Below are positions 18,684 to 21,749 of a DNA stretch of 64,000 bases, piece by piece; positions within the stretch are counted from its first letter, which is position 1, and each line of letters starts with the position of its first letter. The DNA comes from Bdellovibrionales bacterium (GTDB lineage: Bacteria > Bdellovibrionota > Bdellovibrionia > Bdellovibrionales > UBA1609). The DNA is taken from the NCBI GenBank assembly GCA_020628165.1, contig JAHDFM010000018.1, forward strand, positions 1-64,000. The letters run 5' to 3'. The translations under genes were made by a program, and so were the position numbers. The notes below the pieces were generated by a model. The model was not told the DNA's origin. It saw nothing but the letters and a program-made list of their open reading frames with translations, and did no database searches.

Positions 18684-20774
18684 ATGAGCTTTAAAGATCC
18701 TAACAAAATAGAAGACTTAAAATGGACAAGAAACATAGGCATCATGGCCCACATCGATGCTGGAAAAACGACGACGACCGAGAGAGTTCTATATTACTCG
18801 GGCAAGAGTCATAAAATTGGTGAGGTCCATGATGGTGATGCCACCATGGATTGGATGGAGCAAGAGCAAGAGCGTGGAATTACCATCACCTCAGCTGCTA
18901 CGACTTGTTATTGGAATGAGCACCGAATCAATATTATCGATACCCCTGGACATGTTGATTTTACCATTGAAGTTGAAAGGTCTCTCAGGGTGCTGGATGG
19001 CGCTGTCGCCGTTTTTGACGGGGTGAGTGGGGTCGAGCCACAATCAGAAACCGTTTGGAGGCAAGCCAACAAGTATAAGGTGCCAAGAATTTGCTTTGTA
19101 AATAAATTAGATCGTACAGGTGCAGATTTTCAAATGAGTTTTGATAGTATCAAGGAGCGTCTTGGCGCTCGCCCAGTGATGATTCAATACCCCATTGGCA
19201 GTGACGACGAGTTTTCAGGGCTTATTGATATTATTAAGAACAAAGCTTTCTTTTGGCCCGGTGATGATAAGGATCAAAAGTATGAAGAAGGAAATATTCC
19301 AGAGAGTCTAAAGGAAAAAACGAGCCAGTTGCGAACAGAGCTTTTGGACACTCTTTCTGAATTTGACGATGAGTTTATGGAATCTTATTTAGAGGGAAAC
19401 GACCCTTCGGAAGAAACGATTATATCTATTTTGAGAAAAGCCACCTTAAGTTTGGAGCTCACTCCAGTTTTGTGTGGGTCCGCTTTTAAAAACAAAGGAG
19501 TGCAGTTGTTACTAGACAGAGTCGTTGATCTGCTGCCAAGCCCTTTGGATCGACCGGACGTAGTGGGGCATGATCCTGACAATGAAGATAAAGAGATCAT
19601 TTGCAAAACAGATTTCTCTGAGCCCATTGCCTGTTTAGCATTTAAAATTGCTACGGATTCTTTTGCAGGAACATTAACGTACATGCGAGTTTACTCAGGT
19701 GAAGTGAAGGTTGGCCAGCAGTTGTTAAACACTCGCCAAAATAAAAAAGAAAGAATTCAGCGACTCGTAAAAATGCACGCCAACTCGCGAGAGGAAGTGC
19801 AATCCTTAAAAGCTGGAGACATAGGTGCCGTGATTGGTTTAAAATTCACAACAACTGGTGACACTCTTTGCGAGACAAAAAGAAAAGTTTCTCTTGAAAG
19901 TATTCAGTTCCCTGAGCCAGTGATTTCAGTAGCCATTGAGGCCAAGTCATCTGCTGATCAACCCAAAATGATGGATGCTCTTGAGAGATTGCAAAAGGAA
20001 GACCCTTCTTGTTACTTAAAGACTGATCCAGAAACAGGCCAAATGCTCCTTTCGGGGATGGGGGAGCTTCATTTAGAAATACTTGTCGATAGAATGCTTA
20101 GAGAGTTCAAGGTTAAAGCAAATATAGGTCAACCACAAGTCTCTTACCGAGAAACAATCACCACTGAAACTGTAGGCGAATCCACATTTGAAAAAGAAAT
20201 GGCCGGAAAACCTCAGTACGCAGCTTGCTCCATTAAAATATCTCCAGCAGAAAAAGGTGCAGGAGTAAATTTTAAAAATAGTGTAAAAGAGATCCCGAAA
20301 AACTTTTTGCAGGCCATAGAGCAAGGCGCTTTAGATGCCGCAGAAGTTGGAGTGCTAGCAGGCTTTTCGCTCATAGATATAGATATCACATTAATGTCTT
20401 ATGATCAGCGAGATGATGAGTCCAGCGAAATGGCTTTTAAAGTTTGCGCTGGTGCGGCTTTACGTGATGCTCTAAAAAAAGCCAATTCTCAATTATTAGA
20501 ACCTATGTTCAAATTGGAAGTGGTCACTCCAGATGAATACATGGGAGGAGTAATTAGCGACTTAACGTCTCGCCGGGGAAAAGTGAACGGAATGAATCCA
20601 AGAGCAACTATGCAAGTTGTAGACGCCGAAGCCCCATTAATGAATTTATTTGGCTACGCAACAGATCTAAGATCAGCCAGCCAAGGCCGAGCCAGTTTCA
20701 GCATGGAGTTCCTAGAATACGCCCCATTACCAAATAAGGTTGAAAAAGAACTCCTAACAAAATGGGGCCGATAG
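18684..20774 (+). CDS. fusA: Elongation factor G, with divergent domain IV
   Basis: Ribosomal translocase GTPase of 696 residues. The GTPase domain is canonical: AHIDAGKTT (22-30), [18 protein letters not shown] (57-74), DTPGHVDF (86-93) and NKLD (140-143). Domain IV departs from the norm. The usual GGRGQYGHV segment reads [11 protein letters not shown] (507-517). The tip loop, normally SYHDVDSSE, reads [11 protein letters not shown] (572-582), two residues longer and without the conserved histidine. It follows a terminator and has no clear SD, so it is probably transcribed from its own promoter. It may be the housekeeping EF-G of this lineage or a specialised paralogue. Confidence 0.93.
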
Positions 20775-20997
20775 TAAAGCCTTAAAATGATTAAAAAAGG
20801 TAGTTCATTAAAGTTATTTTTTAGCGATTAAAGTATCGCCAAAGAACAGCTTCTACCTTAATCATGAAGTCGCACAGGCAATATAATAAAGGAGAAGCCT
20901 TTTTTATTTAAAACACATCACTAAATTTGATGCACATACTTATAGATACGCCAAGCAAGGCATAATTCAAAGCGAGCCAGGGTGAAAACTTTCAGTT

Positions 20998-21123
20998 TTA
21001 AATCCTCAGCTCTAATAGACTTTGCTCGCACGCAGTTCCGTGGGTGTGGTGCTCGCCAGGGGCGAGCGCCGCTGCCCACGGCTGTCTGAGTACGAGCAAA
21101 GTCTATTAGAGCTGAGGATTTAA
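20998..21123. repeat. 126-bp inverted repeat with perfect 31-bp arms
   Basis: The left arm (20998-21028) and right arm (21093-21123) are exact reverse complements. The 64-bp centre is G+C-rich and itself folds: CCGTGGG with CCCACGG, and GGTGCTCGCC with GGCGAGCGCC (one wobble). The element stands out from its A+T-rich surroundings. It resembles a REP/BIME-like or MITE-like element, or a very large transcription-blocking hairpin after fusA. There is no transposase nearby. Confidence 0.85.
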
Positions 21124-21243
21124 TGCGGACCAAGTTTGAACTCCCAAAATTGAATCCTGAAAAGAGTTAAGCAGCGAAAATTGTAGGTAAAATCCACACC
21201 AATAACTCTTTTTCAAAAATAAACTTTATAACCGACATTAATG

Positions 21244-21272
21244 TTGACAATAAATGCCTGAAAACAGATACT
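21244..21272 (+). promoter_or_regulatory. Promoter candidate for the S10 operon
   Basis: TTGACA at 21244-21249 is a perfect -35 box. After a 17-nt spacer, GATACT matches the -10 consensus at four of six positions. Transcription would start about 150 nt before rpsJ, leaving a leader long enough for regulation. Confidence 0.6.
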
Positions 21273-21349
21273 CAGCAACCTGTACATCGCCCTGTTTTGG
21301 AGCTACACCCCGTAAGTCACTGAAATTACATTATTTTTGTGATACTTGA

Positions 21350-21390
21350 GGAGGTACTTGGCTTCACAAATAACGTCGACGTGCGCCTAA
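21350..21390 (+). promoter_or_regulatory. Possible leader peptide frame before rpsJ
   Basis: A strong SD-like GGAGGT (from 21350) is followed by TTG at 21358 and a frame of ten codons ending in TAA at 21388. The encoded peptide would be MASQITSTCA. The SD to TTG distance is short. It may instead be a decoy ribosome site or part of a regulatory leader. Confidence 0.3.
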
Positions 21391-21428
21391 ATTATTGAAA
21401 TGACTATTCATTTAGAAGGTAAAAATAT

Positions 21429-21749
21429 ATGCAGAGTCAAAAAATTAGAATTCGTTTAAAGGCTTTTGATCACAAATTGCTCGACCAGTCGACTAGAGAA
21501 ATCGTTGAAACTGCTCGTAGAACTGGTGCAAACATTGCCGGTCCAATCCCGTTGCCAACAAGAATCAACAGATACACTGTTTTGAGATCACCACACGTGA
21601 ACAAAAAATCTCGTGAGCAGTTTGAAGTGAGAACGCATAAAAGACTTTTAGATATATTAGAGCCAACGCAGCAAACGATTGATCAGCTTATGAAGTTAGA
21701 CTTATCAGCTGGTGTTGATGTTGAAATTAAACTTTCAGCAGATGTTTAA
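21429..21749 (+). CDS. rpsJ: 30S ribosomal protein S10
   Basis: Small-subunit head protein, also the NusE transcription factor that links NusG to the ribosome. 106 residues. The signature [20 protein letters not shown] lies around residues 34-53, and the C-terminus ends in a typical [13 protein letters not shown] is AGAAGGT. It opens the S10-spc-alpha run. Confidence 0.99.

Follow-up and report, generated by a model that had tools for sequence, protein, structure and literature searches.

A palindrome between fusA and rpsJ of a Bdellovibrionales bacterium as a probable copy of a dispersed hairpin element with a conserved internal-loop module

The 126-bp palindrome that lies between fusA and rpsJ in the stretch of Bdellovibrionales DNA analysed here (64 kb, hereafter the window) probably belongs, on balance, to a dispersed type of non-autonomous hairpin element of about 120–230 bp that is recognised by its structure. 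We favour this reading because the copies are intergenic and numerous, carry a two-sided module, have fixed ends (in 13 copies) and private but matched arms, and are patchily present among genomes. The conserved part of the element is an internal-loop module in its middle, not the perfect arms, and the hairpin family, shared by distant bacterial phyla, is apparently undescribed.

Architecture of the palindrome and its copies in the host genome

The element, its parts and its surroundings are as follows:

18684..20774, + strand: fusA (EF-G), upstream neighbour, identity confirmed
20998..21123, + strand (motif-bearing strand): whole hairpin element (inverted-repeat search, folding)
20998..21028, + strand: left arm (31 bp), pairing exactly with the right arm
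21029..21039, + strand: conserved internal-loop module, 5' strand, CACGCAGTTCC (copy alignments)
21040..21079, + strand: G+C-rich inner hairpin (folding, copy alignments)
21080..21092, + strand: conserved module, 3' strand, GGCTGTCTGAGTA (copy alignments)
21093..21123, + strand: right arm, 31 bp (inverted-repeat search)
21244..21272, + strand: promoter-like site for the S10 operon, between the element and rpsJ
21429..21749, + strand: rpsJ (S10), downstream neighbour, identity confirmed

The initial annotation had described an inverted repeat with perfect 31-bp arms between these two genes, and both the arms and the flanking genes were confirmed. Indeed, the outer 31 bp match exactly in the inverted-repeat search (20998–21028 with 21093–21123), and the wider 38-nt arms (20998–21035 and 21086–21123) are 95% complementary. 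The palindrome ranks first among the 14 inverted repeats listed in the window; the second-ranked one (I2) has 35-nt arms at 80%. The RNA minimum free energy of positions 20980–21140 was −105.8 kcal/mol compared to −49.95 ± 4.48 kcal/mol in 200 dinucleotide shuffles, none of which folded as well (z = −12.47). Instead of the two further stems that had been proposed for the centre, the structure is one continuous hairpin interrupted by small internal loops.

A DNA search of the host genome (G000, 3.19 Mb) returned a graded series of related places. With a covariance model (R1) trained on 17 copies, namely 16 from the host and one from genome G003, we obtained 32 matches in the host genome that correspond to 24 places, of which eight were hit on both strands. 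These places do not correspond to the scenario that had been named as speaking against mobility, in which a lone element would be conserved solely as a terminator. Folding of 16 host copies revealed a common plan, consisting of a conserved middle and of arms that pair over ~20–40 bp and differ between copies. The ends were analysed in those 13 of the 24 copies that fitted an end pattern: these start with C(T/C/A)AAA and end with TTG(G/A)GT (CTAAA...TTTGGGT-type ends) and are 120, 121 or 123 bp long, so that the fixed ends, small size and multiple copies (24 places) of a MITE are all present. The window copy falls into a different subset, together with L002 and L006, with the ends TTTAAATCC...GATTTAATG; the TTTAAATCC end of its left arm (20998..21028) is common to these copies, while the rest of this arm is largely private. 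Two further host copies, L013 and L014, have a common arm sequence and different flanks.

Target-site duplications, which had been proposed as a check, were not detected at the 13 host copies, as direct repeats of length at least 4 occurred in 3 of the 13 compared to 8% in swapped flanks, the longest being 4. Outside of the element copies, exact matches to the window arm do not exceed 15 nt in the host genome (best partial match, 25 nt at 89%), and a role of the arms as guides was rejected on this basis. At another host locus (L192; G000:C53:82426-88433), one gene lies between two inverted elements of a third core type (near 2012–2081 and 2927–2996), an arrangement that resembles a small composite unit; this gene is GNAT acetyltransferase-like, with RimJ as its best match at a score under the curated cut-off.

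Conserved module, matched arms and a wobble-pair strand signature

Nearly all folded copies carry the internal-loop module CRCGCAGTTCC / CTGTYTGAGYA between the inner hairpin and the two outer arms. The inner hairpin (21040..21079 in the window copy) is conserved in sequence within the host genome and variable between genomes. Compared in register over the 25 bp from the module, the arms of different copies were 52% identical in G000, 39% in G021 (10 copies of 53 R1 matches, from 20 regions, several copies being cut by contig ends) and 39–43% in G003, whereas the two arms of any one copy formed Watson-Crick pairs at 91%, 99% and 93% of positions in G000, G021 and G003, respectively. Given such low identity between copies and such high pairing within a copy, the arms change fast but together. 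The module strands and their neighbouring bases were 86% (G000), 94% (G021) and 68% (G003) identical. Single arms average 24–57 bp across the arm-length sets, for which 93 copies were kept from the 118 genome-collection loci listed, and the longest belong to a G021 copy with 83 paired positions, 81 of them Watson-Crick. In a 16-copy alignment, 33 of the 52 pairs showed changes on both sides; the covariation score was 0.570, compared to 0.201 in shuffles, a control that ignores the relatedness of the copies, and to at most 0.121 in slid controls, which favour the structure because it was derived from the same alignment. The fraction of pairing cells in this alignment was 96.1%, versus 77.2% in the shuffles and 36–45% in the slid controls.

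One Hydrogenedentota genome (G055) contains 35 copies, and in the 21 that we inspected the arms are nearly constant. Copies of this genome (L248–L267) carry the same short repeat on both flanks, CAGC[A/G]ATTCTCGG in most of them, which also seems to form small hairpins of its own. In G021, the arms of L228 and L237 continue at their outer ends into a GGTGCCTGACACTT-type repeat that may belong to a family of its own. Two loci of G003 (L024, 1217–1582 of the locus, G003:C62; and L215, G003:C53) are tandem arrays of three units with a period of ~120–124 bp, in which the perfect hairpin is kept in one end unit only and the other two units are without most of the arm pairing.

The mismatches within the arms follow a strand-specific pattern. 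Counting 130 distinct copies out of 147, arm positions 4–10 from the module held, on the motif strand, 100 G.T, 5 A.C and 20 other mismatches, as opposed to 34 G.T, 31 A.C and 45 others at positions 11–25. Near the module, the direction is the same in all four sets (G.T:A.C of 15:0, 12:1, 1:0 and 72:4). The p value of 5e-24 overstates the significance, since the copies are related, but inner and outer arm positions were compared within one and the same group of copies. This excess of G.T near the module, which gives way to unbiased mismatches further out, suggests that the hairpin of one strand is recognised; from the sequences, the motif-strand hairpin seems to be read over the module and about one helical turn, and we read the outer arm as being under no strand-specific constraint. 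The signature fits RNA and single-stranded DNA alike and does not tell them apart.

Distribution, genomic placement and the search for a mobiliser

Within the family, 7 of 47 genomes had R1 matches, with 32 rows (rows, not places) in the host genome, 25 in G003, 53 in G021, 7 in G019, 3 in G002 and 2 each in G020 and G045, and none in the same-genus genome G001, which is 99% complete. A stricter pattern matched 5 of 368 genomes of the phylum; a single G231 hit, for which long arms were not shown, was not counted as a member. Scanning genome collections with patterns yielded at least 118 further stretches, for a chance expectation roughly estimated at ~2. Among the stretches listed, most come from Coriobacteriia (Adlercreutzia, Slackia, Parvibacter, Ellagibacter, Collinsella and Olsenella), and others from Hydrogenedentota, Bdellovibrionales, Omnitrophota, Deltaproteobacteria and Acidimicrobiales. 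The 29 genome-collection loci that were folded have the same module and nearly all have long arms, the arms of L100 (Acidimicrobiales) pairing poorly. Viral contigs gave no match to two patterns and plasmids only chance-level matches. Neither the window nor 14 loci had an Rfam 15 match at gathering score, and three copies searched at permissive thresholds gave only matches far below the gathering scores of the families concerned; ‘skipping-rope’, an Rfam long-hairpin family, was absent from the cmscan matches. We found no description of the hairpin family in the open-licence literature, and an earlier description elsewhere is possible.

The placement of the copies was scored in G000, G003 and G021 for 52 of 54 copies, two being without a gene on one side. 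Twenty-three lay in convergent gaps, 14 between genes both running opposite to the motif, 10 in divergent gaps and 5, among them the window copy, between genes both running in motif direction. The share of convergent gaps (23/52) exceeded that of background gaps of at least 100 bp (8/83; Fisher p 5.6e-6). The right-hand gene ran toward the element in 37 of the 52 cases (p 0.003), often at a distance of 15–80 bp in G000, and the left gene ran along the motif strand in 28. Coriobacteriia and other G+C-rich loci agreed weakly (convergent in 14/32 vs 12/70), the rough gene caller having discarded 64 of 96 placements. Judged by eye from GC skew, orientation relative to the replication strand followed no pattern in G000, and the 8 copies of G047 were too few for this check.

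The fusA–rpsJ gap is devoid of the module motif in the same-genus genomes G001 and G003, as are the ~280 bp of this gap present on the G002 contig, and all three show a TTGACA...GATACT stretch similar to the promoter-like site at 21244–21272. The window copy probably inserted past the 3' end of fusA and ahead of the S10 promoter, where any side effect would at most be insulating. A domain boundary against readthrough from fusA, the other initial idea, would be a possible role; no canonical terminator was called at the element. No gap common on both sides was found among the element loci of G000, G003 and G021. Among the genome-collection loci listed, 20 pairs occupy the same gap, 11 in the same orientation, 8 in opposite orientation and 1 mixed, and their arms are mostly different yet matched (e.g., L095, L125 and L164). 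Opposite orientations in a shared gap fit either an inversion of the spacer by template switching between arms or independent insertions; this mix of orientations would be expected if arms are homogenised and spacers inverted (PMC8604942, PMC8794818), or if insertion occurred repeatedly. Some gaps of Coriobacteriia keep the element across genera, which would fit mobility but equally an element retained over long times for a function. Neither excision nor new insertion was observed in the genomes compared. As a side observation, the G003 fusA–rpsJ gap (L314) contains an unrelated terminator-like hairpin with ~21-bp arms.

No recurrent neighbour gene was found among the 118 loci listed, the largest neighbour-gene cluster comprising 20 loci and possibly representing a generic family. 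IS200/RAYT was rejected as a general mobiliser, given that Y1_Tnp was missing in 6 of 12 genomes tested, including G055 with its 35 copies; PF01797 was present in all 7 R1-positive family genomes, but also in 23 of the 40 negative ones. Likewise, a reverse transcriptase was discarded, as RVT_1 (PF00078) occurred in only 5 of 15 genomes and was absent from G000, G003, G021 and G055. A search for a parent transposon, covering G021 ends only, returned one inverted pair without an evident transposase. This pair (L328, 2516–2557 and 7186–7227; G021:C203) consists of 42-nt inverted repeats 4.6 kb apart that have the terminal sequence of some long G021 hairpins, with no module seen between them; it adjoins a scaffold gap (run of N) and encloses genes that we take, by their look, to be radical-SAM-, binding-protein- and kinase-like. 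We infer mobility from the distribution, the fixed ends and the empty gaps.

Relation to known elements and proposed explanation

The family resembles REPs and REPINs (PMC3733652), being made of dispersed, patchily present intergenic hairpins with G.T in their stems that are enriched in convergent and unidirectional gaps; in that paper, REPs are placed mostly between convergent and unidirectional genes and described as GTAG-/CGTC-tagged palindromes that are mobilised, or thought to be mobilised, by RAYTs. However, REPs measure 20–40 bp, which is well below the window copy and the family range, and they carry an unpaired tag, whereas our copies have a fixed internal loop and free arms, with GTAG and CGTC in 6/133 and 9/133 copies compared to about 8.3 and 8.5 expected in shuffles; moreover, half of the tested genomes are devoid of a RAYT-type gene. 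Bacterial MITEs and the ERIC-like 127-bp repeats (cf. PMC2759123) are similarly small, multicopy and intergenic, with fixed ends as in the 13 host copies. In contrast to them, no target duplication was seen in the family and no parent transposon was found in the search with G021 ends, and its inner arms, not only its ends, are palindromic and copy-specific. The initial idea of a landed, MITE-like element is supported as regards its multiple intergenic places, the gap empty in G001 and G003 and the fixed ends and length of 13 copies, while membership in the REP/RAYT system is not supported, for want of tags above chance and of Y1_Tnp in 6 of 12 genomes. The life style is REP- or MITE-like, yet the family lacks the REP tag, exceeds REP size and shows no MITE-type target duplication.

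Integron attC sites are recognised as a folded single strand, have a variable terminal hairpin and a GTTRRRY box, and are arrayed with cassettes. The family shares the variable terminal hairpin and, as proposed here, the folded single-strand recognition, but it has long outer arms and dispersed copies, and the GTTRRRY box was found in 1 of 147 copies (last 60 nt). Intrinsic terminators are free in stem sequence and located past gene ends, as is this element, which differs from them by its conserved internal loop and stems of ~25–83 bp; a simple scan (loop limit 8) found no stem followed by a T-tract in 20700–21450.

In an alternative reading, the hairpin is a resident 3'-end element, serving as bidirectional terminator or mRNA 3' stabiliser, in which the stem may vary and an RNA-binding protein reads the module. 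Such a role would account for the convergent-gap excess at both groups of loci, for the right-hand genes that run toward the element, often from nearby in G000, and for same-gap retention across some genera, and the A/T-rich stem bases do resemble those of terminators (CTAAAAGA...TCTTT; AAAAAAGG...CCTTTTTT in G055). We nevertheless consider it rather unlikely: the mRNA of the nearest gene would carry the strand whose excess mismatches are A.C, and this sign is wrong for an RNA stem under selection in that mRNA; the window copy has no terminator call, and a terminator needs no conserved internal loop. Strong covariation, conserved internal loops and motif-strand G.U tolerance beside the module could also point to a structured RNA made from the motif strand, such as an sRNA or a ribozyme-like RNA. 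This tolerance ends after ~10 bp, however, and the left gene runs along the motif strand in just over half of the scored cases, so that there is no consistent transcription in motif sense; together with the missing Rfam match, the private arms and the patchy presence, this renders such an RNA improbable.

That the module was inserted into pre-existing palindromes, the arms belonging to the target, would explain private and closely paired arms at once and has a precedent in some REP dimers, which are reported to lie within longer palindromes (PMC3733652). Yet the 13 host copies have constant outer ends and a constant total length, and L013 and L014 have the same arms at different sites, and thus the arms travel with the module there; the near-constant arms of G055 and the lack of longer matches to the window arm elsewhere in the host genome add to making this origin improbable.

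Under the explanation that we favour, a dispersed non-autonomous element, a factor encoded elsewhere would recognise the motif-strand hairpin (RNA or single-stranded DNA) by its module and the adjoining ~10 bp, and would copy or move the element into sites just past gene ends. The outer arms would need only to remain paired while their sequence drifts; template switching between them during replication would re-match them, thereby homogenising the arms and sometimes inverting the piece in between, and selection for pairing may help to keep them matched. More tentatively, it is conceivable that the family represents a new class of mobile element in several phyla, recognised not by its end sequence but by the way in which one strand folds, with a small conserved internal-loop module and arms of any sequence as long as they pair, and moved by a not-yet-known recombinase.

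Of relevance to annotation, assemblies seem to be broken by such hairpins, several G021 copies lying at contig ends. If the proposed explanation is right, it tells apart, across distant phyla, the features that a dispersed palindrome cannot do without, namely a two-sided loop module and pairing, and the arm sequence, which it can lose; the wobble-pair signature predicts which strand the partner would bind. The long, private and nearly perfect arms would then be a natural record of how the arms of bacterial inverted repeats stay matched, and the template-switching explanation is therefore directly testable.
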